Of a stretch of 37,090 bases of DNA, positions 1 to 16,053 are shown piece after piece. A model generated the notes under the pieces. That model saw only the letters and a program-made list of their open reading frames with translations. It was not told the DNA's origin and made no database searches. Numbering within the stretch: position 1 is the first letter of the stretch; each line of letters begins with the position of its first letter. The translations under genes and the position numbers were made by a program. Source of the stretch: Bdellovibrionales bacterium (lineage in GTDB: Bacteria > Bdellovibrionota > Bdellovibrionia > Bdellovibrionales > UBA1609); assembly GCA_007121385.1 (NCBI GenBank), contig SKLV01000132.1, forward strand, positions 1 to 37,090, in the 5' to 3' direction.

Positions 1-1561
1 CGATAGGGGGAAGTTGTCCATCCACCCGGGTCATCTCCAGAAAAATCTGATAGATGTGGTGTCGGCGCATCTTTTCTTCCACCGGGTCTGAGTGGGGAGG
101 CAAAAAGAAAGGACTCATTTCAAAGCCCTGACCGGGCGCTAAACTCATCACCCTTCCACCCAAAAACTGGGTGAGGCGATTGTAAGAGCCACCAATGTCC
201 ACAATAAAAATATTGGGATCCAAAGACATGCTCTGGGCTAAAAGGGAGTTTACAAAAAAGCTTTTTCCCGAACCACTGGTTCCACTGACCAGCCAATTGT
301 AGTTAGCCAAACGGCCATCCACAGGATCAATTCCATAAAGACTGGCACTGCGGGTTTGAAAGCTGGCGACGGCTCTTTGGTCCCCCTTTGAGGGTCTAAA
401 AAAGGGTAAAAAGTGGAGGGCGTTAGATCCCAATACCGTATGAGCTTTGATATTTCGGCCTGAGAAACCTGGCAAGCACTCCAAATAGGAATCAAAGACT
501 CCTAAGGTGCTCTCCTCCAGCTCACAGAGGTCCATTTGCGAAGCCGCACGAGCCATAGTGGCCAAAGCTTTGCGATGAAAGGAGCCCCACTGACTGGGAA
601 ACCTCAGTCCCAACGTCAGCTTCAAATCAAAAATGGACTCCGACTTCTCAGCAATGTCACGCAAGATCTGGTCAATCTGCTCAATCTGAGTGCTCAGAGT
701 GGCCGAGGGAGAAGTCTTGTTGGCCCTTTGGGAGTTGAGTAAATTTCGTTTGCGCTCAAGGCGAGACACAATGGGTTTGATGTCTCGAGCGATCAAGCGC
801 AGGGATAGATCCATGGGATAGGGAAGACGGGACAGAGCTTGTATCATGCCCAGCTCAGTGTGAGTTTCAGGTAACTGCACCAGCTCTAAAGCCCTGAATA
901 CATCCTTGTTGATCTCCAAGTGGCCAGCATGCAGTTTAAGCTCGGGAAACTCAGCCTCATCTCGCGCTGAAGTGCTCAGATCCTGGGCACTCATACTCAA
1001 TTCTTTTTCCACTTGCTCTCGATGGAGGGGAGAAACCCTTAGGCCAAAAGCCGAGAACTGAGACTCCACCAGCTCTCTTTTTTGTTCAAGGTCAAAGCCT
1101 TCCAGAGGCTCTCGAGTCCAAAAGCACACAATGATCTTTTGTGAGAGCAGCCGAGGCTCCGATTCACTCATCTGATTGAGTTGGTCTGCCAAATGATCCA
1201 AAAGGATTTTACGGCCAGCAGCATTCTCCGCCAAAAAGGCCTGGCTCAATTGAGACTCGACCCACTCTGTAAACTCCACCCGCTTTCTAAAAATAATCTG
1301 GACTTCCTCTCCGGGCTCAAAGCGCAGGGCTGATCGCCACTGTTGATGGAGCATCTCCATTTGGTCAGGGCCTAAGAAATCTCCATCCAATCCCCCAAGC
1401 TCAAACATAAAGCCCACTCTTTTTTCACTTAACAAGTTGCCCTGCTCGTCCACCCTGTGGGGGGTAAAGTAATCTCTCAGGCTGAGGGGTGTGGAACTGC
1501 CCGCTCCCATTTTCAAGGCTGAGCCTGTTTTCAATGAGAGCCAGTTCAATAGCTTTTTCAT
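1..1561 (-). CDS. VirB4/TraC-like type IV secretion ATPase (partial, C-terminus beyond the left edge)
   Basis: Minus-strand reading frame open from ATG at 1561 to the window edge (MKKLLNWLSLKTGSALKMG...). Walker A GTSGSGKSFFVNSL near 290-320, followed by NIFIVDIGGSYNRL. Start overlaps the upstream VirB3-like stop (ATGA). Not in the ORF track because it has no stop in the window. Confidence 0.85.
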   Translation of the reverse strand, partial: MKKLLNWLSLKTGSALKMGAGSSTPLSLRDYFTPHRVDEQGNLLSEKRVGFMFELGGLDGDFLGPDQMEMLHQQWRSALRFEPGEEVQIIFRKRVEFTEWVESQLSQAFLAENAAGRKILLDHLADQLNQMSESEPRLLSQKIIVCFWTREPLEGFDLEQKRELVESQFSAFGLRVSPLHREQVEKELSMSAQDLSTSARDEAEFPELKLHAGHLEINKDVFRALELVQLPETHTELGMIQALSRLPYPMDLSLRLIARDIKPIVSRLERKRNLLNSQRANKTSPSATLSTQIEQIDQILRDIAEKSESIFDLKLTLGLRFPSQWGSFHRKALATMARAASQMDLCELEESTLGVFDSYLECLPGFSGRNIKAHTVLGSNALHFLPFFRPSKGDQRAVASFQTRSASLYGIDPVDGRLANYNWLVSGTSGSGKSFFVNSLLAQSMSLDPNIFIVDIGGSYNRLTQFLGGRVMSLAPGQGFEMSPFFLPPHSDPVEEKMRRHHIYQIFLEMTRVDGQLPPI

Positions 1562-1854
1562 GGACGAGGTCCTCCCCGCAGACTGTTTAAGAGCAACTTG
1601 GGGTAAAGCACAGCCGGAAGACGCAAGAACCGCAGCAGCCGCCGGACAAAAAGATCACCAAAGGAGCGACGAAATACAAAGAAGACACTGGCAAGAATAA
1701 GAGTGGCCACAAAGGCCCAAACCCGATGCACGCCCAGGAGCTGAAAGAGCTCTCCCCCGCCCACCAAAGTGACCGCCAAAAGAGTCAGTTCGGCCACACT
1801 AAAGCCCATCACCTGGAAGGGCTGGTCTAAATTTCGGTAAATGGGTGCGCGCAT
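1558..1854 (-). CDS. VirB3/TraL/TrbD-like T4SS membrane protein
   Basis: 98 aa; N-terminal PIYRNLDQPFQVMGFSVAEL followed by two hydrophobic segments; lies between VirB2-like and VirB4-like genes. Confidence 0.75.
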   Translation of the reverse strand: MRAPIYRNLDQPFQVMGFSVAELTLLAVTLVGGGELFQLLGVHRVWAFVATLILASVFFVFRRSFGDLFVRRLLRFLRLPAVLYPKLLLNSLRGGPRP

Positions 1855-1911
1855 GCTTCTTGCTCCCTTCGCAACAAGGCTTGGACTCTCTGTGCTGCGT
1901 GGAAATGCACC

Positions 1912-2208
1912 CTAGTTGAAGTAGTGAATGATGAGGTGGGATGCATTCACCACCACGAGGCCAACAACCCCATAGATAAGACGGGTCACTCCCGTATTCT
2001 CACCTTTTGCAATTAAAAATCCGGCCCAAGCCACAAAGCCCACAATCAAAATATTAATAATTCTCACCAGATCCGTAATGGTCTGCTGAATGCGCCCCTC
2101 CAGGCCACTTTGAGCCAGAGCGGGCCAGGCAAAGAAAAAGCAGATCAGAGCCAAAATTGTAAAAATCACCAGGGCATCAAGGCCCCTTACTAAGTAAACT
2201 TTATTCAT
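1912..2208 (-). CDS. VirB2/TrbC-like pilin subunit
   Basis: 98 aa with a signal-peptide-like N-terminus (ALA cleavage site) and two hydrophobic helices; first of a VirB2-VirB3-VirB4 order. Confidence 0.7.
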   Translation of the reverse strand: MNKVYLVRGLDALVIFTILALICFFFAWPALAQSGLEGRIQQTITDLVRIINILIVGFVAWAGFLIAKGENTGVTRLIYGVVGLVVVNASHLIIHYFN

Positions 2209-2331: not shown

Positions 2332-3408
2332 TTAGGCCAAATACTGATCCCTAAGATCATAAATGATTGATTTTAAAATAGCGGCCGCGGGGATAGCCAA
2401 AAGCACTCCCAAAAAGCCAAAGAGATTGCCTCCCACCACAATGGCCAAAAGACCCACCAAAGGGCTAATGCCCACTTGTGAGCCTACCAGTCTAGGGGTG
2501 ATAAATAGACTCTCTAAAGTTTGGACAATGGCAAAGACGGCGATCACCCCTATCAGTAGAGCTATTCCCGTAAAGTTGGCAAAGAGAGTCACTAAGGCAA
2601 TGGCAAAGCCAATGGTGAAGCCTGCATAGGGAACAATACTCAGCAGCCCTGAAATCACGCCAATGAGAAAGCCAAAGGGCAGGCCCACCAGCCACAGTCC
2701 GATCCCGTAGAGGAGGCTCAATATCCCTGCCACCAGAAGCTGACCCCGCACATAGCCGCTCAAAATCCGATTGCTCATCTTCAGATAGCGATTGAGGGTG
2801 GGCTGAAAAGCTTTGGGAATAAAAGATTGGATCTCTTTGGCGATGCGCTCATAGTCGTGGATCAGATAAAAGAAAATCAGCGGAAATAAAATGAGCCCTA
2901 CAATGGCGGCAAACCAACGGCTCAAGTTAGAGAAGACTCTCTGCACCGACTGAGTGGTGGCCTTGGCTACACCCTCTGAAAGGACCGCAACATTCTCCAC
3001 CAAAAGGTCCTTAATTCCCTGACGACTGAGATCCATGGGCACCCCCCAGTGACGGGCCAAATCTTCGACTCTGTTGATCGCCGTTTCTGAAGTTTGCGGC
3101 AGGTCTCTGACAAAGCTCTGCCCCTGTTCAATCAGGGGGGGCACTAGTAAAACAAGGGCCACGACCAAGGCTAAAACAAAGGCGGCAAAAACCCCAACAA
3201 CGGCATAGACCCTGGGCACCCCTCTGCGCTCAATTTTTAAAATCAAGGGAAAGCTCAAATAGGCCAAGAGCATGGCCAAGAGCAGAGGCTTGAGGGCTGC
3301 TCCCAGGCCATAGAGAATAACTCCAACAAGGACCAAAAAAGCCAGAGCTGAAAGGCCAATGGCCCAAGAGCGATCCTTCATATTCACTCCCATTCGGTAA
3401 GAGCCCAC
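2332..3408 (-). CDS. AI-2E family transporter (PerM/YdiK-like permease)
   Basis: 358 aa polytopic protein; typical family segments (LLLAMLLAYLSFPLILKIERRGVPR, LIFFYLIHDYERI, GLLSIVPYAG, LVGSQVGISPLVGLLAIVVGG). Start may be the internal Met at 3381. Confidence 0.88.
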   Translation of the reverse strand: MGSYRMGVNMKDRSWAIGLSALAFLVLVGVILYGLGAALKPLLLAMLLAYLSFPLILKIERRGVPRVYAVVGVFAAFVLALVVALVLLVPPLIEQGQSFVRDLPQTSETAINRVEDLARHWGVPMDLSRQGIKDLLVENVAVLSEGVAKATTQSVQRVFSNLSRWFAAIVGLILFPLIFFYLIHDYERIAKEIQSFIPKAFQPTLNRYLKMSNRILSGYVRGQLLVAGILSLLYGIGLWLVGLPFGFLIGVISGLLSIVPYAGFTIGFAIALVTLFANFTGIALLIGVIAVFAIVQTLESLFITPRLVGSQVGISPLVGLLAIVVGGNLFGFLGVLLAIPAAAILKSIIYDLRDQYLA

Positions 3409-3920
3409 TCAGCATGGTAATCTTGAGCTGGATTTTGGGGGATCCCGTCGAGGTTGAGCCTCAGAAACCACTGACCTGGCATACTCATTAAGAGCATCTC
3501 CTCGACCTGAAAAATTCCCTCGCGAAGGGCCTGAACTTTTAAGGGACGGCCCCCATGCTCATGATTGTGGGGCATCTTCATCCAAAGATAAAAATGGGGC
3601 TCACTCTCAAGAGCCTGACCCTGGGGACTGTAAATATGGGCCATTCCCGAAGAAAAGCGGCGCTCCCCCCGAGGATTCACATAGGGCCCCTCCAAGTACT
3701 CATAGTGAAAGCAGAGATTCCAGCCCTGAATTTCCAGCTCTCCCAGCTCGCAAAGCTCAGTGGCTTCTTGAGAGGAGGGCAGTGAATGAGCCGCTAAGCC
3801 CCCTGCCACTAGGCCGAATGAAGTCAAGGCCACCACAAAGCCCATCAGGGCCTTAGGAAAGGAAAGGGCTCTTCTCCACTGAGGCTCTCTTTTATAAAAA
3901 ACATTCTGTTTTTCCTTCAC
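3384..3920 (-). CDS. FixH/YtkA-like exported domain protein
   Basis: N-terminal hydrophobic segment, then MKMPHNHEHGG...G-F-x-V...MSMPGQWFLRLNL, resembling the YtkA/FixH pattern. Confidence 0.5.
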   Translation of the reverse strand: MKEKQNVFYKREPQWRRALSFPKALMGFVVALTSFGLVAGGLAAHSLPSSQEATELCELGELEIQGWNLCFHYEYLEGPYVNPRGERRFSSGMAHIYSPQGQALESEPHFYLWMKMPHNHEHGGRPLKVQALREGIFQVEEMLLMSMPGQWFLRLNLDGIPQNPAQDYHAEWALTEWE

Positions 3921-3941
3921 TGTTCACCTCCTTAAAAAGGC

Positions 3942-4904
3942 TTAAATGGGCAGGGCCCGGCTGATGGCCAAACTCACTCGCCGAGACAGCTGACTGTTGC
4001 GAACCGGACCAAAAATGCTTTGATCTCCATAACTCATAGTCACAGTCCAATCCCCCTCGGGAGTCCACAGTACATAGGGACTCAGTTCATAGACCAGCTC
4101 GGCGGGTGCTCGCTGCGGCTCCCTCCCCTCGCCCAAGCCTCGGCCCTCTTTAAATAGGGCAGTCCATGAAACCCCATAACTCCAAGACCTCTCCCCTGCA
4201 GTCAGGCGCAAAAGCCCCAGGGTCAGTGCAAGCTCCTGGCGGGAGAGGAGCTGAAGTTCTCCTGCCGATTGAGGCCAACTCCAGCCCCAGTGGCTCTCTA
4301 GAGAGTAGCGGAAGCGATAGAGGGATTTGAACAGATGCACTCCTAGGCGACTGGTCCACTGCTCTCCTCCAGTCACATCAGTGACCCCAGGGCTCTGGGA
4401 CTGATAAAGGCCTCGACCAGTGGGGAGACCCTGGGTGTAACTCAAGAAGACTTGCGGCTGCCAAACCTGAGGGGGACTGGGGTAGAGCCATTCGTAGGCC
4501 AAAAATAGATTCAGGTCTCCGGGAGCCAGGCCGGAACTCTCCGAACCACCTCCCACAAAAGCTGCCTGACGGGAAACTAAGTCCCAGGACACTCCCCCCT
4601 GCCAATCGGGAGCAATAAAAAAACTCACAGAGGGAGTCAGCAAGTGCTCCTGCAACTGGCGCTCATCATCCCAAAACAACACAGGCCCCTGACCAAACTG
4701 TTCGGCCACCACAGTGGAAAAACGATGACTGAGACGAAATTCCCAGCGGTTGAATTCCGTCATTAAATTGCGGCTGCTGCTCCCTGCCGCACAACAGGCC
4801 GCCCCCAGCGCCCAGGGGCTTAGCAGAAGGGAGCTCAGGAGCCCAACCACTCCGCTAAAAATCAAAAGACAGACTGATCTCCTCAGCAAGTTCCCGCACT
4901 CCAT
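3942..4904 (-). CDS. Predicted outer-membrane beta-barrel-like protein
   Basis: 320 aa; signal peptide, ACCAAGSSS at the predicted mature N-terminus, alternating aromatic/hydrophobic strands (YRFRYSLESHWGWSW, WTVTMSYGDQSIFGP) throughout. Confidence 0.5.
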   Translation of the reverse strand: MECGNLLRRSVCLLIFSGVVGLLSSLLLSPWALGAACCAAGSSSRNLMTEFNRWEFRLSHRFSTVVAEQFGQGPVLFWDDERQLQEHLLTPSVSFFIAPDWQGGVSWDLVSRQAAFVGGGSESSGLAPGDLNLFLAYEWLYPSPPQVWQPQVFLSYTQGLPTGRGLYQSQSPGVTDVTGGEQWTSRLGVHLFKSLYRFRYSLESHWGWSWPQSAGELQLLSRQELALTLGLLRLTAGERSWSYGVSWTALFKEGRGLGEGREPQRAPAELVYELSPYVLWTPEGDWTVTMSYGDQSIFGPVRNSQLSRRVSLAISRALPI

Positions 4905-5325
4905 TTTTCCAAATCCAAACCTGAAGATTCAACTCCCAGTAGCCTGGCATATTGAAATAAAGCTCCTGCCCGCGAAAGCGGCCACCACCTAGGTTCTCAA
5001 TAAAGCCATCGTCGGCTGGTCCATGCCCTCCCATATAGGGCATGGCAGCCCATGAGCTGAGCTCAAATTCCAGCTCCTCTGGGGAGGAGAGACGCCCCCC
5101 TTGGTCCACCAGTAAAATTTCAAAAGAGGAGGCCTGAGTGGGATTGCCAAAAGGCCCCTCCAGCCACACAAAGACCAGGCGCCGATTGAGGGAACTGAAA
5201 AAGAGTTCGGAACTGACGGCCGACTTTGCAGCTCGGTGAGCTGAAGTCGACTCGCCGGAGAGAAGAGGAGACTCACAGCCAACCAAAAACACTAAACTCA
5301 ATAGGCCCCACAAAGCCCTTCTCAT
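4855..5325 (-). CDS. FixH/YtkA-like lipoprotein
   Basis: Lipobox FLVGC; AAMPYMGGHGP...GGGRFRGQELYFNMPGYWELNLQVW matches the same MP..H-G...MPGxW pattern as the 3384-3920 product. ATGA overlap with the upstream gene. Confidence 0.5.
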   Translation of the reverse strand: MRRALWGLLSLVFLVGCESPLLSGESTSAHRAAKSAVSSELFFSSLNRRLVFVWLEGPFGNPTQASSFEILLVDQGGRLSSPEELEFELSSWAAMPYMGGHGPADDGFIENLGGGRFRGQELYFNMPGYWELNLQVWIWKNGVRELAEEISLSFDF

Positions 5326-5993
5326 CCCCGCCCTCCCTTCAGGTTATAACTGATGGGACAGCCCAAGGGGCGAGTCTGCTGCGGGCGAAATCCTTGACCT
5401 GAGGCTCTGGCTTGAAGAGCCTCCTGCAAATAGAGTCGATTTTGCGGACTGAAGTCACTGGCAGAGGTCACCGCACCCTGGTAAAGAACTCTAGCTTCTG
5501 AGTTCAAGACAAAGACATGAGGAGTGGTGACAGCTCTCAGAGCTGAGCTGATTGTGAGCTTCCTGTCATCCAGAACGGGAAAGGAGAGTTGGCGCTCTTG
5601 GTAAAATTTTTTGAGCTCGGGGCCCTCTAAAACCCGGTCGGTGTGCAAACCGATAAACTGAAATTCAGGAAAACGATGGGCTAATTCATTCAAGTGAGCC
5701 ATATGCGACTGGGAGCAAGGGCAAAAAGAGGAGAGAGTGACCATAACCCAATCACGCTTTTTTAAAGAGGAGCTGAGCCCATCTCCCTCGTCGGCTTGAT
5801 TAGCCTCTTTGAAATTAGCCTGCTTGCTCCGGTCCAACCAGTTCTGATCATTGAGAATAGGCAAAGCTAAGAGTTGCTCCACAGAGACCGGTGTCCTGAT
5901 CCCCGATACCTCGGCCTCTTTGGGCCTGGTCTGACAAGCACTCACAAAAATAATGAGAGAAAAGAGTAAGGAAATCCGCCACCAGAGGCCCAT
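5322..5993 (-). CDS. Redoxin/thioredoxin-fold lipoprotein (PRX_like1/TlpA-like)
   Basis: Lipobox FVSAC; VTLSSFCPCSQSHMAHL; TTPHVFVLNSEARVLYQGAV; C-terminal TRPLGCPISY resembling the conserved C-terminal Cys of redoxin-like proteins. Confidence 0.7.
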   Translation of the reverse strand: MGLWWRISLLFSLIIFVSACQTRPKEAEVSGIRTPVSVEQLLALPILNDQNWLDRSKQANFKEANQADEGDGLSSSLKKRDWVMVTLSSFCPCSQSHMAHLNELAHRFPEFQFIGLHTDRVLEGPELKKFYQERQLSFPVLDDRKLTISSALRAVTTPHVFVLNSEARVLYQGAVTSASDFSPQNRLYLQEALQARASGQGFRPQQTRPLGCPISYNLKGGRG

Positions 5994-6008
5994 GGGCCTG
6001 GAATTAGC

Positions 6009-6830
6009 TTAGAAGCCCCGACGACGCAAGTCCAAGGGCCCTAAGGCCAGATCGCTGACGCGCTGATACGCAGAAATATGACGGGCACCATGCCAGGCGT
6101 ACATGAGGCTGCCCCATTGGAGGCGGCGGACGACGGACTCCACCAGATGCATTTCAACGGCGGGGCAGCCCCAGCTGCGACCGAGAGGAGTGAAGGCCGG
6201 ATTCACATAGTCGGCCCCATGGACCACAATGGCCCTTTGCCGAGCTCGGCTATTCGAGGCATCCAGGCCATCCAAGCGCATAGAGAGGCCGTATTTGCCA
6301 TAATAGGGCTCGGCGGTCAGATAAAAACCCAAGGAGGTCATGCGCGAGCCGGAGACATTGGAGAAGCGCTGAGCTCGGCCTGTGTGGTTGGGATCTGAGC
6401 CCACACCATGGGCGGTGAGCAAAGCCTCCACTTCCCCGCTGTGCAAATCAATAATGAATTTCCTGGGCTCATTGGAGGGAGCCGAAAAATCAATCACTGT
6501 TATATAATCTTTGTTTTTTATGCGATTTTGGTTTCGCTCAAAATAATCCACCGCCTGCAGCCAGGGCTCCCTGGGCACCCCTTGATCCAAGACCACTTGA
6601 ATTAAACTCCGGCTCTCTAAGGGTTCTTCCTGAGGCTCGTTGGGCTCCTGAGGCTTTTGAGACTCCTGAGTGGTGAAGTCCCGGGGCTCCACCACCTGGC
6701 GCTCCCACAGAGAGTCGGCAGGCCCCTGAGCACAGCCCAAAGCCCCTACCAGTCCAAAGCTTAAAACCAACGACAGCCAACCCCGAGAGCCGAGCTCCCG
6801 TCTTTGAGAAATCCCTAAATCTTTTTTCAT
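6009..6830 (-). CDS. L,D-transpeptidase catalytic domain (YkuD-type) lipoprotein
   Basis: Lipobox GALGC; IVVHGADYVNPAFTPLGRSWGCPAV = HG...SxGCxA catalytic motif. ORF extends to 6848; internal Met at 6830 (MKKDLGIS) is a better start for the signal peptide. Confidence 0.8.
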   Translation of the reverse strand: MKKDLGISQRRELGSRGWLSLVLSFGLVGALGCAQGPADSLWERQVVEPRDFTTQESQKPQEPNEPQEEPLESRSLIQVVLDQGVPREPWLQAVDYFERNQNRIKNKDYITVIDFSAPSNEPRKFIIDLHSGEVEALLTAHGVGSDPNHTGRAQRFSNVSGSRMTSLGFYLTAEPYYGKYGLSMRLDGLDASNSRARQRAIVVHGADYVNPAFTPLGRSWGCPAVEMHLVESVVRRLQWGSLMYAWHGARHISAYQRVSDLALGPLDLRRRGF

Positions 6831-6889
6831 AGATTTAAGAATAACCAAGTTGGAGTGAGGGACCCAAGCCTAGGCCCTGCAAACTGGAC

Positions 6890-9370: not shown

Positions 9371-9766
9371 ATGGCATTAAAGAATTTCTTAACTCGAGTC
9401 TTTTTCGGCCTTTCCGTGGCCAGCACTTCCAGCCTCAGCTCGGTGGCTCTTGCCGACTTGGAAAAGGCTCAGCCTGGAGATGTGATCTTTATTGATGTGC
9501 GCACTCCTGCCGAGTTCAACCAGGGCCACATCCCTGGAGCCATCAATATTGATCTCTATGATTCCAGCTTTATGGGGCGCTTAAATGAGCTGGACCCTGG
9601 AAAATTTTATAAGCTGTATTGCCGCAGCGGAGCTCGCTCCGGCCAGGCTCAGCAGATTATGCGAACTTTGGGCTTTTTGCGGGCCGAGAATATCGGCGGC
9701 TTCCGCCAGGCCTCTCGCTACGCCAACCAGCTTTTACAGAGCCTTCCTCAACTCAAGGCTCAGTAA
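9371..9766 (+). CDS. Exported rhodanese-like domain protein
   Basis: Signal peptide ending VALA; VIFIDVRTPAEFNQGHIPGAINID; active-site loop CRSGARSGQA; SD AAAGAGGTGA upstream. Confidence 0.88.
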   Translation: MALKNFLTRVFFGLSVASTSSLSSVALADLEKAQPGDVIFIDVRTPAEFNQGHIPGAINIDLYDSSFMGRLNELDPGKFYKLYCRSGARSGQAQQIMRTLGFLRAENIGGFRQASRYANQLLQSLPQLKAQ

Positions 9767-9824
9767 GCTTTTTTAAGGACTTTTTCTTTGCTTAGGCCCC
9801 TCAAACAGGGCATAAGCGGACTTC

Positions 9825-10832
9825 ATGTTATGTGAAGTTTTGGCTAAATCTCGCAGCAAGGCCTCTCATGTTCTAAATGCCACAACTGTCCGAACTTTTC
9901 AGTTCAGGATCTCCATATTGAGTCTGGGGCCATTGCTCCTGGTGGCTCTCCTCGCTCTCTCCTCCCCTGGGGCCTGGGCCGAACAGCAAAAGAGCTGTGA
10001 ACAGACTCTCCAGGGAAAAGGGGCTCAGGCCCCCTCGACCGCAAGCTCAGAGTCTGTCCTGGACTCCGCAGAACTCCGAAAGATCTATCAAAGTGTCCTT
10101 GCCGACCTGCCGCCGAGGGGAGACTCTCCCTCCATCAGTTTGATTTTGCCGGCCTATCGGGAGGAGAAAAGGCTGCCCCGATCCATTGCCAAAATGCAGA
10201 GTTTTTTGGACCGCCATCCATTGCCCCTAGAGATCCTGCTTGTCGTGGAAAAATCCCCCGATCAAACTCTGGGCTTGGCTCGATCCCTGACTGAAGGAGA
10301 CCCGCGCTTTGTGGTCATCGACAATCAAGTTCATCGAGGCAAGGGCTATGCGGTGCGCTCAGGAGTAAAAAAGGCTAAAGGGGACTTTGTGTTTTTCACT
10401 GACTTAGATCTCTCCATACCCCCTGAGGAGATGCTCAAAGCCCTGTCGCTTCTACTGTCTCAGCCTCAGGTGGATATGATCATTGGCTACCGCAACTTGG
10501 CCGAGGAGAGGAGCTTGATTCGCCAAGCCTTCAGTTGGACCTTTCAGTACTTGGCTCTGTGTATTGCCGGTGTGCCCACCAGCTGGGACAGCCAATGCGG
10601 CTTTAAGGCCTTTCGCTGGGAGGTGGCCCAGCAACTCTTTGATGAACAGCGGCTGGATGGCTTTGCCTTTGATGTGGAAGTCCTGGCCCTAGCCCGACGG
10701 GAGGGCTATGAGGTCTATAGTCAAACAGTGCCCTTCTTTGATCAGGAGGGCTCCACTGTGCATCTGCTCAAAGATCCGCCCAAGATGTTGATGGATCTCA
10801 TTCGGGTGCGCAGCTCCCTACTCCACAACTGA
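9825..10832 (+). CDS. GT2 glycosyltransferase (dolichyl-phosphate sugar transferase-like) with N-terminal signal peptide/anchor
   Basis: ISLILPAYREEKRLPRSI; HRGKGYAVRSGVKKAKGDFVFFTDLDLSIPPEE; SQCGFKAFR; hydrophobic segment ending SSPGAWA-EQQ at the N-terminus. Confidence 0.8.
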   Translation: MLCEVLAKSRSKASHVLNATTVRTFQFRISILSLGPLLLVALLALSSPGAWAEQQKSCEQTLQGKGAQAPSTASSESVLDSAELRKIYQSVLADLPPRGDSPSISLILPAYREEKRLPRSIAKMQSFLDRHPLPLEILLVVEKSPDQTLGLARSLTEGDPRFVVIDNQVHRGKGYAVRSGVKKAKGDFVFFTDLDLSIPPEEMLKALSLLLSQPQVDMIIGYRNLAEERSLIRQAFSWTFQYLALCIAGVPTSWDSQCGFKAFRWEVAQQLFDEQRLDGFAFDVEVLALARREGYEVYSQTVPFFDQEGSTVHLLKDPPKMLMDLIRVRSSLLHN

Positions 10833-11903
10833 TTTGGAATTTTGTGAGGAGAGAAGATCCTCACATTGAGAGGCCTGAGCCCGCGCCAAGCCCCTCTCCT
10901 CAACCCCCTGCCACCCCTGCGCTGTGGGCGGAGGCACCAAGCTTTTGAGACGAATTTTGACTGGCACTTTAAAGCGCAGAGTGACCACTTGAAAACTGGC
11001 CGTAGTGGCAATCAAAGGGGGCACACTCACCCCCATCGCCATGCCCCCTCCAACCATTCGGTCATTTCTGAGGAGCATAGGGCCGCCCGGCAAATAGTAT
11101 GTATTTATCTTTTCAAAAAAACGCCCCTCTTGGGATCCCACTTGAGGACTGGCGGCAGCAATCATCCGACCATTGACGGAGGCCAGTAGAGTGGGCAGAA
11201 GAGCCCTCTTGGGAATCTCCACATCCAAATAGAGACTTTTTAAGCAAAGCTCTCCCTCGGGCCCCATGTCCACTGAGAGCTCGCAGCCCAAGACCAGTCC
11301 AAAACCTAAAGCCACTCCGGGGACTCGATACTCTCCCCATGTCCATCCGGGCCAACCCGAGGCCACCTCAGCGCCGGCCCCCATATAGAGCTCCATATCC
11401 TGAGCTCTTGATAAACTTTTTATATTTTTTTGAATAAAAAAGCCATCCACCTTTTGCAGCAGGGCCTCAATCAGCAAATGGCTCTTTTGTCGTGGCCCTG
11501 GCTGTGGTGGACTTTGTGCTGAGGTCAGGAATCGACGTAAAAAATAAAGCCGAGAAGTCAATTTGGGCAGTGACTCCAGCTTGTAGGCCAAGGCCGTAAG
11601 AATCATGCGCCTTTTGTGGACAAAGGCCTGACGATCAACAAGAGACAGGGCTAAGAACTCCTCTAAGACTTCCTGTCGGGGCTCATAGAGGTCATAAGAG
11701 TGGGACAGCTCCTCTCCCACCAAATGCACCTCCAACCGGTCCAAATGGTCAAAGTGAGTCCAGCCTCCTAGATCACTGGCCCAAGCCCTCTCCCAGTCAG
11801 GGGCTGAGGCCTCCTCAGCCACCACCCTGTCCAGCTTCAAGCCTATTGTTAAGACAACAAAAAGGGCTCCTGCTAACCAGAGCCCATAGCTACGCAAAAT
11901 CAT
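10818..11903 (-). CDS. Exported protein of unknown function
   Basis: ORF extends to 12119, but Met at 11903 (MILRSYGLWLAGALFVVLTIGL) gives a signal peptide and avoids overlap with the FAD oxidoreductase gene. No family recognised. Confidence 0.6.
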   Translation of the reverse strand: MILRSYGLWLAGALFVVLTIGLKLDRVVAEEASAPDWERAWASDLGGWTHFDHLDRLEVHLVGEELSHSYDLYEPRQEVLEEFLALSLVDRQAFVHKRRMILTALAYKLESLPKLTSRLYFLRRFLTSAQSPPQPGPRQKSHLLIEALLQKVDGFFIQKNIKSLSRAQDMELYMGAGAEVASGWPGWTWGEYRVPGVALGFGLVLGCELSVDMGPEGELCLKSLYLDVEIPKRALLPTLLASVNGRMIAAASPQVGSQEGRFFEKINTYYLPGGPMLLRNDRMVGGGMAMGVSVPPLIATTASFQVVTLRFKVPVKIRLKSLVPPPTAQGWQGVEERGLARAQASQCEDLLSSQNSKSVVE

Positions 11904-11964
11904 AAGCCCCCAGTCATACCCCAAGCCCCAAAGGGGACCAAGTCCCTTTAGTGATAGCGGCGCG

Positions 11965-14112
11965 TTAAGAACGACGCCACTGATGGTAGCGGGCCAACCA
12001 GCGCAGAGCCCCTTGAGGAGCTGTGGCCTTTTTCCAGACCCCGGCGGCAAATTTATTGGCCTCAGCCAGTGTGGGGTAAATGTGAATGGTGCCCAGGATT
12101 TTGTTGAGTCCAAGGCCATACTTCATGGCTAAAACATACTCGGCCATAATGTCGCCGGCATGGGGACCTACAATGGTCGCACCTAAAATCCGGTCACTGC
12201 CTGGAGGAGTGAGCACCTTTACAAAGCCTTTGGCCTCACCATCGGCAATGGCTCGATCCAAGCCCTCAATACTGTAGCGAGTGAGCTGGTACTCCACCCC
12301 CCTCTCCTGGGCCTCCTGTTCGTTCAAGCCCACCCGAGCCACTTCGGGATCGGTGAAGGTGCACCAGGGGATCACTCGGTAGTCCACCCGAAAGCGCTTA
12401 AAGGGGCTGAACAAAGAGTTCACAGCCACAAACCAGGCCTGATGACTGGCCACATGAGTGAACTGGTAGGGGCCCGTGACATCTCCACACACATAGATAT
12501 TGGGGTAGTTGGTCACTCGCATATATTCATCAGCCACAAGGGTTCCCCGCTCCGAAACCTCCACCCCAAGCTCCTCCAAGCCAAAGCCTTTGATATTGGC
12601 CTGTCTGCCCAGAGCCAAGAGAATCCTGTCAAAGTCCAAGGCCGTCTCTTGCCCCTCATGCTCACAAATCAAACGACGGCCCTCTTCAATGCGCAGCCCC
12701 CTATGGGATGTCTTGATGGCAATGCCCTCTTGCTCAAAGCGCTGGCGGATGAGTTGGGCCACCTCTTGGTCCTCACGGCCCATAATCTCAGGGGCCATCT
12801 CCACTAAAGTCACCTTGGAGCCCAGTCGCGCAAAGCTCTGGGCTAGCTCGCAGCCAATGGGACCACCCCCCAAGACCAACAAGTTTTTTGGCAACTCTTT
12901 CAGGTCCCAAACATTGTCGCTGGTGAGATAGTCCACTTCTTTCAATCCTGGCAGTTCAGGCACAAGGGGCCTGGCTCCAGTGGCAATCACTATATTTTTA
13001 GAGGTTAAGACCTTGTCTCCCACTTGCACTTCATAGGGGCTCAAAATTTTGGCCTCACCTTGAAAGCAGTCCACACCAAGACCCGAGTAGCGCTCCACTG
13101 AATCGTGGGGTTCAATGCGGGCGATGATCCTCTTCACCCGCTCCATAACCTGACCAAGATCCACCGGTTGAGGAGCAGAATCCACTTGAGGCAAGCCAAA
13201 CTCGGGAGCTCGCTTCAGATAGTTGAAAATCTTAGCCGAACGAATTAAGGCCTTACTGGGCACGCAGCCTGTGTTGAGACAGTCCCCCCCCATCTTGTGC
13301 TTTTCAACCAAAGCCACCTTGGCCTTGATGGCGGCGGCAATATAGGCTGACACTAAACCGGCACTGCCGGCCCCAATGACCACCATATTGAAGTCAAACT
13401 TTTTGGGCTTTTTAAAGCCTCGCAGATGCTTGCGCGCCTTGATCACCTCCAGAGTTCGCTTGGAAATCAAGGGCAAAACACCAATCAGAACAAAGGACAG
13501 CAGCAGTGCCGGAGAGAGTAAACCTTTAAGAGAGTCCAGCTGGGCAATTTGAGTGCCCGCATTCACATAGACGGCCGTGCCTGGAAGCATCCCCACCATG
13601 CTCACAAAAAAGTAGGCGCTGGTGCGAATAGGAGTGAGTCCCATCACCAAGTTGATCAAGAAAAAGGGGAAAAGAGGCACTAATCTTAAGGTGAAAAGGT
13701 AAAAAGCTCCTTCCTTTTCAATACCGCGATTAATACTTCCCAGCTTATCGCGAAAGCGGGTCTGCACCCAGTCTCGCAGTAGAAAGCGGGACACCAAAAA
13801 GGCCAAGGTGGCCCCGATGGTGCTGGACAAAGACACAGTCACTAAGCCCACCCAAAAGCCAAAAATCGCCCCGCCAGCCAGAGTCAAAACCAAAGCGCCC
13901 GGTATGGAGAGGGCGGTGGATAAAATGTAAATTCCGGCAAAGAGACCCAGGAGCAGCAGAGGCTGGCTGCGGTAAAAGTCGTCCAAGGCCTGTTGGTGCT
14001 CCTTGAGAGCTTCAAGAGATAGGTACTGAGCCAGGCCTGACTGCTGGATCAAAAAAAAGACCAAAGCCAGGCCTGTGAGAACGAGAATTTTTTTAAGCCA
14101 CTGCTTTTTCAA
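11965..14112 (-). CDS. TVP38/TMEM64 (DedA-like) membrane domain fused to FAD-dependent pyridine nucleotide-disulfide oxidoreductase
   Basis: N-terminal membrane half with SIPGALVLTLAGGAIFGFWVG; C-terminal VVIGAGSAGLVSAYIAA, GGDCLNTGCVPSKAL redox CxxxxC, GGGPIGCELAQSFARLGSKVT, CGDVTGPYQFTHVA. TTG start at 14112. Confidence 0.9.
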   Translation of the reverse strand: MKKQWLKKILVLTGLALVFFLIQQSGLAQYLSLEALKEHQQALDDFYRSQPLLLLGLFAGIYILSTALSIPGALVLTLAGGAIFGFWVGLVTVSLSSTIGATLAFLVSRFLLRDWVQTRFRDKLGSINRGIEKEGAFYLFTLRLVPLFPFFLINLVMGLTPIRTSAYFFVSMVGMLPGTAVYVNAGTQIAQLDSLKGLLSPALLLSFVLIGVLPLISKRTLEVIKARKHLRGFKKPKKFDFNMVVIGAGSAGLVSAYIAAAIKAKVALVEKHKMGGDCLNTGCVPSKALIRSAKIFNYLKRAPEFGLPQVDSAPQPVDLGQVMERVKRIIARIEPHDSVERYSGLGVDCFQGEAKILSPYEVQVGDKVLTSKNIVIATGARPLVPELPGLKEVDYLTSDNVWDLKELPKNLLVLGGGPIGCELAQSFARLGSKVTLVEMAPEIMGREDQEVAQLIRQRFEQEGIAIKTSHRGLRIEEGRRLICEHEGQETALDFDRILLALGRQANIKGFGLEELGVEVSERGTLVADEYMRVTNYPNIYVCGDVTGPYQFTHVASHQAWFVAVNSLFSPFKRFRVDYRVIPWCTFTDPEVARVGLNEQEAQERGVEYQLTRYSIEGLDRAIADGEAKGFVKVLTPPGSDRILGATIVGPHAGDIMAEYVLAMKYGLGLNKILGTIHIYPTLAEANKFAAGVWKKATAPQGALRWLARYHQWRRS

Positions 14113-14119
14113 AATAAAA

Positions 14120-14155
14120 ATCCCCCAGTAAAGACACTTTTCTTTACTAGGGGAT
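14120..14155 (-). terminator. Intrinsic terminator/attenuator-like hairpin between persulfide dioxygenase and the TVP38-FAD gene
   Basis: Minus strand ATCCCCTAGTAAAGA-AAAGTG-TCTTTACTGGGGGAT followed by TTTTATTTTG: 15-bp stem (one U-G pair), 6-nt loop, U-rich tail. Confidence 0.85.
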
Positions 14156-14187
14156 CATAATTAGAGCAGGAGATCAACTGAGGATCT

Positions 14188-15051
14188 TTACTCGCGGATG
14201 GGGATCTTCAAGTAGCTGGCTCCGTTATTCTCTTGGGGGGGCAGCTTTCCCGCATCAATATTCACCTGCACACTGGGAAGCAGCAGGCGGGGAGCTGCAA
14301 GAGTGCGGTCGCGGCTGGTGCGAAACTCCACAAACTCGTTCTTGGTGGTTGAGGCCTTGATATGAATGTTCTTTTCCTTCTGTTCACCAATGGTGGACTC
14401 CCAGGCCACAGGACGACCATTCGGCTGGTAGTCATGGCCAGTGAAGGCCCGAGTCTCATCGGGCAAGCTGTAGAGCTTGTCGTGGACGGAAGTGTAGAGG
14501 TCTTCCGCACTGCCTGCGGGAAAATCACAGCGACCCGTTCCGTAGTCTGGCATAAACAGAGCGTCCCCAGTGAAGACCGCATCACCAATCAAATAGCTGG
14601 CGCAGGCCGGAGTGTGACCAGGAGTGTAAATGGTGTCAATCTTTAGAGTCCCGGCCTGCAGGGGCTCGCCCTCCTTAAGAAGCACATCAAACTGACTGCC
14701 ATCTGTTTTAAACTCGGGGTCTAAGTTAAAGACCCCTTTAAAGACTTCTTGGACCTTGCAGATATTGGCACCAATACCCACTTTGACTCCGGGGAGATGG
14801 GGCTTCATCACCTGAGCACCGGATATGTGATCGGCATGGGCATGGGTCTCCAAAATGTAGTGGACCTTTAAATCCTTATCGTTGACAAAGGCCAAGACTT
14901 CCTCGGCCGATTTGGTGCTGACTTTGGAGGCCGCTGGATCGTAGTCCCATACTGGATCCAATATCACTGCATCTTTACTGGAAGGGTCAAAGACCACATA
15001 AGTCAGGGTCCAGGTGTCCTTATCAAAAAATTCTTTTACTGAAGGCTTCAT
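14188..15051 (-). CDS. MBL-fold persulfide (sulfur) dioxygenase, ETHE1/Blh-like
   Basis: ILETHAHADHISGAQ, TIYTPGHTPACASYLIGDAVFTGDALFMPDYGTGRCDFPAGSAEDLYTSV, FTGHDYQPNGR. Confidence 0.9.
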   Translation of the reverse strand: MKPSVKEFFDKDTWTLTYVVFDPSSKDAVILDPVWDYDPAASKVSTKSAEEVLAFVNDKDLKVHYILETHAHADHISGAQVMKPHLPGVKVGIGANICKVQEVFKGVFNLDPEFKTDGSQFDVLLKEGEPLQAGTLKIDTIYTPGHTPACASYLIGDAVFTGDALFMPDYGTGRCDFPAGSAEDLYTSVHDKLYSLPDETRAFTGHDYQPNGRPVAWESTIGEQKEKNIHIKASTTKNEFVEFRTSRDRTLAAPRLLLPSVQVNIDAGKLPPQENNGASYLKIPIRE

Positions 15052-15177
15052 AATTCACCTCTTTCTTGTTCTGGTTGAAAACTCTAGGCTGATTTTGTCA
15101 GCTACAGCCTTAGACTAACTGAGGCCACTGAGCAATGAAGATGTGCCAGCACACAATTAAGCCCCCAATTCGGTGCC

Positions 15178-15192
15178 CCTGAGGACCTCAGG
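15178..15192. promoter_or_regulatory. Inverted repeat CCTGAGG-A-CCTCAGG in the divergent intergenic region
   Basis: Perfect 7-bp arms with a 1-nt centre. Confidence 0.35.
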
Positions 15193-15263
15193 CCGCTACT
15201 GAAATCTGGGCCTCGACGGGGTCTCGACCTGGAGATCAAGGCGGGAGATAGAGCCTCAACCCG

Positions 15264-15278
15264 TGTTGCATCGCAACA
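15264..15278. promoter_or_regulatory. Inverted repeat TGTTGC-ATC-GCAACA in the divergent intergenic region; candidate operator
   Basis: Perfect 6-bp arms with a 3-nt spacer between persulfide dioxygenase and Crp/Fnr genes. Confidence 0.4.
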
Positions 15279-15405
15279 ATTACCCCGCTGCCCCCCCCTG
15301 AATCCCCCTCAAAGGTCCTGAAGGCCTTGAGTGTCTTAAAATGAGTCATTACACTTTCCCCTCTTTATATAAGAGATAAGCTGATGATTTCTCAGTGAGG
15401 CCTTG

Positions 15406-16053
15406 ATGTTTTTCCGCGAGTTTTGGAGCTACCTGGCTCCAGAGATTAAAATCCAATTGGAGTCTTCGGCAAGAGCCCTGGACTTTAAGCGAGGAGAGTT
15501 TATTTACCAAGAGGGGGAGCTGCCTCAGGGGCTCTACTTTGTCAAATCAGGCCTGGTGGGACTGGTTCTCTTGGGGGCCGCCTCTGGTAAAGAGCACCTG
15601 CTGCGCTTCTTCCGTGAAAACCAGTTTTTTGGCCACCGCTCTCTCTTTGCTGAAGAGGGCTACCATGGCTCCACCATTGCCTTAGAGCCCACATCCCTGC
15701 GCATGATCCCCAAGGCTGTTATTTTTGATATCCTGAGTAAACATCCTTATCTCTACAAAGATGTGGTGGTGGTCCTCTCTAAGGAATTGCGTCAGGCCGA
15801 GGTTCAGCGAGTGATGATTTTGGAGAACCAGATTCTGGCGCGAACGGCTCAGGCCGTGATCTACTTGAAAGAACTCCACCCCGACCACAAGTGGACGCGC
15901 CAAGAGATTGCCAACTTTTGCGCCAGTACGGTCTCAACCATTATCAAGGCCCTGGCAGAGCTGGAGTCCCGGGGTCTGATCCGCCAAGCTGGCAGAAGTA
16001 TTGAGATCTTAGATCGACAGGGCCTTCTCACTTTGCAAGAGAGCAACCTCTAA
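15406..16053 (+). CDS. Crp/Fnr family transcriptional regulator
   Basis: cNMP-like beta barrel (FIYQEGELPQGLYFVKSGLVGL...FFGHRSLFAEE) and C-terminal HTH (TRQEIANFCASTVSTIIKALAELESRGLI). ATG at 15406 preferred over TTG at 15403. Confidence 0.9.
   Translation: MFFREFWSYLAPEIKIQLESSARALDFKRGEFIYQEGELPQGLYFVKSGLVGLVLLGAASGKEHLLRFFRENQFFGHRSLFAEEGYHGSTIALEPTSLRMIPKAVIFDILSKHPYLYKDVVVVLSKELRQAEVQRVMILENQILARTAQAVIYLKELHPDHKWTRQEIANFCASTVSTIIKALAELESRGLIRQAGRSIEILDRQGLLTLQESNL

Follow-up and report, generated by a model that had tools for sequence, protein, structure and literature searches.

What does a compact set of envelope genes do when it encodes a redoxin, an outer-membrane barrel and two YtkA-like proteins side by side? 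The genes in question occupy positions 3384–5993, all on the minus strand, of a 37,090-nucleotide stretch of DNA from a Bdellovibrionales bacterium (NCBI GenBank assembly GCA_007121385.1, contig SKLV01000132.1); this stretch, hereafter the window, is the entire contig G000:C17, from a draft genome of 2.4 Mb. Working names are used throughout: RED for the redoxin, YtkA1 and YtkA2 for the YtkA-like proteins, OMP for the barrel protein and LDT for a neighbouring L,D-transpeptidase. Our answer, to which we assign a probability of roughly 75–80%, is that RED-YtkA1-OMP-YtkA2 is an envelope copper-handling module in the general sense. An initial annotation, made from the sequence of the window, had suggested an envelope metal/thiol-redox module, and that broader proposal is now well supported by synteny, by the CrdA-like predicted fold of YtkA2, by conserved thiols and Met/His residues and, in relatives, by a shared palindrome and by clusters with SCO1 and PCuAC. 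Copper binding by the module and the direction of transport are predicted. The four genes form a single unit, in which the YtkA1 start and the RED stop overlap by 4 bp:

5322–5993, minus strand: RED, redoxin; lipobox SAC, active-site region SSFCPCSQSH, TPH, C-terminal LGCPI.
4855–5325, minus strand: YtkA1, YtkA/CrdA-like lipoprotein; lipobox, MPYMGGH...MPGYW.
3942–4904, minus strand: OMP, predicted 12-strand β-barrel; signal peptide, Cys37-Cys38 directly past the probable cleavage site.
3384–3920, minus strand: YtkA2, second YtkA/CrdA-like protein; secreted, MKMPHNHEHGG...MSMPGQW.

Relatives sharing these genes are designated Bdellovibrio, Bdellovibrionales, Bacteriovoracaceae and Oligoflexia, and their proteins align with those of the window at about 20% identity. 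A search with OMP alone recovered the barrel in 20 of 40 relatives, in nearly all of which the redoxin and a YtkA-like lipoprotein precede it in the same order; a profile search across 369 genomes from the phylum Bdellovibrionota placed OMP in 176. Synteny was counted over 99 non-redundant OMP loci, 92 of which extend 1.5 kb or more on the upstream side: RED is part of the module at 87 of the 92, and the order RED-YtkA-OMP is kept at 85. Because the loci were picked by OMP or RED (mostly by OMP alone, the remainder by RED) and not by YtkA, YtkA was observed there independently of the selection. An additional YtkA gene occurs at over half of the loci (51/92), either downstream of OMP (23), divergently upstream (19) or, at approximately 10 loci, in the same direction upstream of RED or between RED and YtkA1. 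RED-YtkA-OMP forms the conserved core, to which a second YtkA is often added in varying placement. Conservation of the neighbourhood, which the initial annotation had proposed as a check, thus came out in its favour; of its YtkA-OMP-YtkA pairing, the frequent second YtkA stands, whereas the flanking position is not constant.

We found nothing in the literature describing a RED-YtkA-OMP module, which agrees with the earlier remark that the arrangement matches no named system. Beyond the phylum, a redoxin scan identified relatives (L176–L185) with no OMP or YtkA homologue alongside, though this was a single scan with one seven-sequence subset (the full redoxin alignment has no sufficiently conserved stretch) and does not prove that the trio is absent elsewhere. 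Two metagenome records, titled ‘Streptomyces griseus’ (L156) and ‘Nitrosovibrio sp.’ (L163), contain a Bdellovibrionota trio, and their titles are probably wrong.

The case for copper comes first from the YtkA-like proteins. The sole Pfam match of YtkA1 and YtkA2 is YtkA (PF13115), at scores under the cut-off (15.7 and 14.7 bits versus 25.9), and the two are 30% identical to each other (BLASTP, E 0.001). Eight of 20 members of the YtkA1 family match Pfam YtkA at E ≤ 0.01, the best at 6e-10, and the YtkA of a further relative, L206, reaches 33.3 bits. The family keeps an invariant lipobox Cys, a Met, a His and a Met-x-Gly; its profile weakly matches copper resistance protein 9LL2 in the PDB (E 0.006), and its MP-M-GH loop aligns with the Met-rich loop of CrdA, a methionine-rich copper-binding protein (PMC9182242). 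No lipobox was seen in YtkA2. Its AlphaFold 2 (AF2) model, with a mean predicted local distance difference test score (pLDDT) of 76, ranked H. pylori CrdA first among 350,542 PDB chains, as the silver-bound form 9LL4 followed by the apo form 9LL2 (E 3e-4 and 9e-4). The third match was chain C of 9G6B, the cbb3-2 NOH complex, which we take to be the FixH-like subunit of that complex. From this model, YtkA2 is predicted to have a CrdA/FixH-like β-sandwich fold, and the two short proteins did not prove to be unrelated folds, so this check of the initial annotation also came out in its favour. The motif noted in both, MP-x(2,3)-H ... MPGxW, is present as MPHNHEHGG/MPGQW in YtkA2 and MPYMGGHG/MPGYW in YtkA1, and it is not a chance resemblance, as MxGx[WYF] occurs in 144 of 153 YtkA proteins. 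Across 28 aligned YtkA sequences, His122, Met147, Gly149 and Trp151 are invariant and Met114 is kept in at least 90%; these conserved Met and His residues are candidate metal ligands.

OMP, a protein of 320 amino acids, has no Pfam match in the window, and none of 19 members of its family tested gave a credible Pfam-A match, copper-resistance barrel families included. Its AF2 model (pLDDT 85, predicted template modelling score 0.78) has twelve strands, and a Foldseek search placed the Pseudomonas polypeptide transporter FapF first (5O67/5O65, E 1e-11; template modelling (TM) score 0.67 by query length and 0.75 by target length), followed by the COG4313 channel 4RL8 (E 4e-8); FapF was also matched by profile (E 1e-8). 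On the strength of the model, we assign OMP to the FapF/COG4313 class of barrels. It departs from FapF in its N-terminal Cys-Cys, in an identity of about 13–16% and in its YtkA and redoxin partners. As for the Fap amyloid system, no other gene is conserved alongside the trio at these loci, in a comparison that did not apply Fap profiles to the neighbours. The model bears out the barrel that the initial annotation read as starting ACCAAGSSS, with the correction that the distinguishing feature is a Cys-Cys pair near the mature N-terminus. The pair lies in a low-confidence N-terminal stretch (residues 29–43) after a signal-peptide-like helix, and it is found by regular expression in 97 of 98 relatives, the remaining one reading VCCGG by eye. 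An alternative role in outer-membrane protein assembly, also raised earlier, is not supported, since the barrel matches FapF and COG4313 channels.

The third core member, RED, is an AhpC/TSA redoxin (Pfam E 7e-9, 36.1 bits versus a cut-off of 26). SxxCPCSxSH, TPH and LGCxI are kept in 17 aligned relatives, and among 94 relatives SxxCPCS is found in 88, CPC and TPH in 92 each, and a C-terminal GCx[IVL] in every one, so the FCPC and C-terminal GC noted at the outset do not reflect chance. The RED profile matches 2CVB in the PDB (E 4.5e-19) with the C-terminal GCxI aligned; because 2CVB and 2YWI both carry GCxI, we regard it as a trait of the 2CVB/2YWI-type redoxin family.

A probable connection between the module and copper delivery to oxidases emerged from regulatory sequences in relatives. 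The palindrome TGCAACA-N3-TGTTGCA lies 51–53 bp before RED at six loci (L073, L077, L081, L129, L130 and L158) and directly before the YtkA1 open reading frame (ORF) at L029; at 12 or more of 14 bases, it occurs at 16 places in 1.49 Mb. Exact sites in the 369 genomes number 17, in 15 genomes, compared with 0 for a reversed-pattern control. By our reading of the neighbourhoods, 14 of the 17 belong to one gene set, drawn up after the sites were known, that comprises PrrB-like kinase operons, a 176-aa secreted protein, a 334–345-aa protein, SCO1-PCuAC-YtkA and RED-YtkA-OMP. Six palindrome sites, in five genomes, are within approximately 3.5 kb of SCO1, whose positions were determined before the sites. 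In L206, kinase, regulator, SCO1, PCuAC and YtkA form a single run, and in both L206 and L211 a PrrB/RegB-like kinase, a Fis-type PrrA/RegA-like regulator and SCO1 adjoin. The best NCBIfam matches are PrrB/RegB for the kinase (E 3e-36; 125 bits versus an equivalog cut-off of 350) and PrrA/RegA for the regulator (E 1e-37; 130 bits versus 250); because these scores fall under the cut-offs, we consider the proteins relatives of PrrB/RegB and PrrA/RegA rather than equivalogs. To judge from the sequences of these relatives, the RED-YtkA-OMP and SCO1/PCuAC sets are probably both under the control of a PrrB/RegB-like two-component system that acts via the palindrome. Such a layout, with SCO1 (SenC) adjacent to kinase and regulator, resembles regB-senC-regA of Rhodobacter, where regA and regB are cotranscribed with senC and RegA is itself copper-binding (PMC9147068). 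It differs in that the relatives add PCuAC and YtkA and share the palindrome with RED-YtkA-OMP, and the system is absent from the genome of the window.

Several further observations concern these regions. Inverted repeats upstream of RED were more frequent than in shuffled sequences (65 versus 19.5), in part due to a tRNA gene; GCCCTTT-N3-AAAGGGC (7-3-7), upstream of RED in one lineage, was considered as an operator and rejected, since by eye it corresponds to the anticodon arm of a tRNA gene in antisense orientation. Three of the 17 exact palindrome sites precede XRE-type regulator genes (L202:2446, L202:12080 and L209:4902) and probably represent an unrelated operator. The secreted protein of approximately 176 aa is encoded behind the palindrome in several genomes (L206:8355-8885, L172:871-1401, L073:1296-1826, L201:4941-5486 and L210:1171-1803); it has neither a Pfam nor an NCBIfam match and is a candidate new member of the copper/redox regulon. 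The secreted protein of approximately 334–345 aa, likewise without a Pfam match, adjoins the palindrome or the module (L208:2011-3015, L203:4290-5327, and near L089, L090 and L143). TonB-dependent receptors at L031:4861-8110 and L208:5776-7923, near the module or the palindrome, share the motif C-x2-CGAKR-x-(T/S)INGLKGEHT, and that of L031 is accompanied by a FUR-family regulator.

In the window's own genome, a CuA-type COX2 has a diverged Sco directly upstream, in an oxidase operon. SCO1 and OMP co-occur across the 369 genomes (153/176 with OMP versus 131/193 without; odds ratio 3.1, p 1e-5, phylogeny uncorrected). For both reasons, we rejected a role for the module as a substitute for SCO1.

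How might such a module work? We envisage OMP as an outer-membrane conduit whose Cys-Cys tail would swap Cu(I) with the lipoprotein YtkA1, while YtkA1 and YtkA2 would ferry Cu(I) across the periplasm on Met/His ligands. RED, tethered beside the YtkA proteins, could reduce the Cys-Cys tail and/or the cysteines of copper-receiving proteins and so permit Cu(I) binding, by analogy with the thiol reduction performed by TlpA and Sco in other systems. The likely purpose would be to provide copper to SCO1/PCuAC and a CuA-type cytochrome oxidase, tuned to redox state. There is precedent for this combination in Bacillus, where the YtkA-domain lipoprotein CtaK and the thioredoxin-fold thiol protein Sco are implicated in CuA assembly (PMC13344008); here, the setting is instead a Gram-negative envelope with an outer-membrane barrel, and RED is an AhpC/TSA-type CPC redoxin, not Sco. 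Bradyrhizobium offers a similar parallel in principle, with its thiol reductase, periplasmic copper carriers and membrane component: Sco or TlpA reduce COX II thiols, copper is carried by pCuAC, and TlpA, ScoI and pCuA/pCuC are joined by an operon that copper induces and that includes a membrane copper receptor (PMC6696091). Its protein families are different throughout, whereas the module described here is one compact operon. Supply of copper for oxidase assembly, rather than export or resistance, is preferred because the linked genes in relatives are assembly factors, although we would put its chances at about even.

A number of observations weigh against this interpretation. The YtkA2 model is of medium quality, with a TM score of 0.39 by query length and 0.61 by target length. 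Directly beside the module, the kinase is found at 7 of 99 loci and SCO1 and PCuAC at 2 each, and the Pfam families of immediate neighbours have no general metal (copper) enrichment. The window's own genome, G000, contains no exact palindrome, and the window none within 3 mismatches; the genome also has no short PrrA-type regulator and no PCuAC. Because the palindrome and the regulator are missing there, the regulatory link rests on relatives. Some near-complete OMP-bearing genomes (for example, G075 and G079) have no COX2 match at E ≤ 1e-8, so the link between module and CuA oxidase is not strict, and COX2-bearing genomes without OMP exist, such as the sister G001. Against supply in particular, YtkA2 most closely resembles a resistance protein in its predicted fold, and a metal P-type ATPase is encoded near the module at L029.

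The last two points also favour the best-surviving alternative, copper/silver export and resistance, in which YtkA would capture surplus periplasmic Cu(I), the barrel would efflux it and RED would repair oxidised thiols, like CrdA-CrdB or CopC/PcoC with PcoB. In L029, the metal P-type ATPase is encoded downstream together with a MerR-type regulator (both read by eye), and many divergent YtkA proteins end in His-rich tails. The H. pylori CrdAB-CzcBA system shares with the module the predicted fold of YtkA2, the Met-rich loop that aligns with the YtkA1 family and an outer-membrane partner encoded nearby. However, the partner here is a FapF-like barrel, a redoxin lipoprotein is added, and neither the TolC-type outer-membrane factor nor the resistance-nodulation-division (RND) pump of CrdAB-CzcBA is found in the conserved unit. 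The genes linked in relatives are those for the assembly factors SCO1 and PCuAC and for a PrrBA-like redox system, not for efflux pumps, and the 25 most common neighbour families include neither RND nor multicopper oxidase. We therefore consider export unlikely, while taking it more seriously than the alternatives that follow.

A periplasmic thiol-repair or signalling module, composed of a peroxidase-like redoxin and lipoproteins, with the barrel a mere anchor and any metal incidental, is improbable. It accords with the AhpC/TSA superfamily membership of RED, the GCxI shared with 2CVB and 2YWI, and the redox-sensing nature of PrrB/RegB-type kinases, but it leaves the YtkA Met/His residues, the barrel Cys-Cys and the link to SCO1/PCuAC unexplained. 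Less probable still is the handling of another metal, such as zinc: genes for a FUR-family regulator and a TonB-dependent receptor come after the module at L031, and ZrgA zinc-uptake proteins appear twice among module neighbours, yet Met-rich sites fit Cu(I)/Ag(I), and the CrdA/YtkA precedents and the SCO1/PCuAC link indicate copper. Finally, secretion of a polypeptide through the barrel, with YtkA and RED assisting in folding, would suit its best structural match, FapF, but is very improbable given that the trio has no conserved extra gene able to encode a substrate across loci.

The limits of the module were set by comparison with 80 other cluster loci. The five successive minus-strand genes of the initial annotation are real, as are its three lipoproteins insofar as LDT, RED and YtkA1 each have a lipobox-like sequence by eye; its inclusion of the L,D-transpeptidase in the cluster was not borne out. 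LDT, an AI-2E transporter and UPF0047 had zero homologues at the 80 loci and were dropped as members. LDT ends 15 nt ahead of RED, and the two are possibly co-transcribed locally. The adjacent genes are:

6009–6848, minus strand, probable ATG start at 6830: LDT, L,D-transpeptidase lipoprotein; YkuD_2 E 5e-47, lipobox-like sequence.
2332–3408, minus strand: AI-2E family transporter, immediately downstream; Pfam E 6.5e-61.

Elsewhere in the window, positions 2–2208 (minus strand), which adjoin the end of the contig, hold part of a gene set for conjugation/type IV secretion, with a TrbC/VirB2-like pilin (1912–2208, Pfam E 1e-7), a small membrane protein (1558–1854) and an edge-cut 520-aa ORF. Within 9371–16053, we read by eye a rhodanese-like protein (9371–9766), a fusion of a TVP38-type membrane domain with a flavoprotein reductase (11965–14112), a metallo-β-lactamase-fold protein (14188–15051) and, near these, a Crp/Fnr-like regulator (15403–16053); the group is possibly involved in sulfur handling.

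Taken to its furthest extent, the copper-handling interpretation would define a new type of copper conduit in the outer membrane: a FapF-like barrel with a Cys-Cys tail through which Cu(I) is loaded or unloaded, served by a dedicated CrdA-like lipoprotein and a thiol reductase. Throughout Bdellovibrionota, Bdellovibrio among them, this conduit would act as the outer-membrane branch of a PrrBA-like regulon for copper and redox. We offer this tentatively and with some doubt. Copper passage across the outer membrane is poorly settled, and the module would provide a compact, widely conserved test system, with TGCAACA-N3-TGTTGCA as a concrete candidate DNA site. The regB-senC-regA theme of redox sensing coupled with copper chaperones would reach into a further phylum, where its partner genes are new, and a function is proposed for a Pfam-less outer-membrane family present in approximately half of the sampled genomes of Bdellovibrionota, the phylum to which predatory Bdellovibrio belongs.

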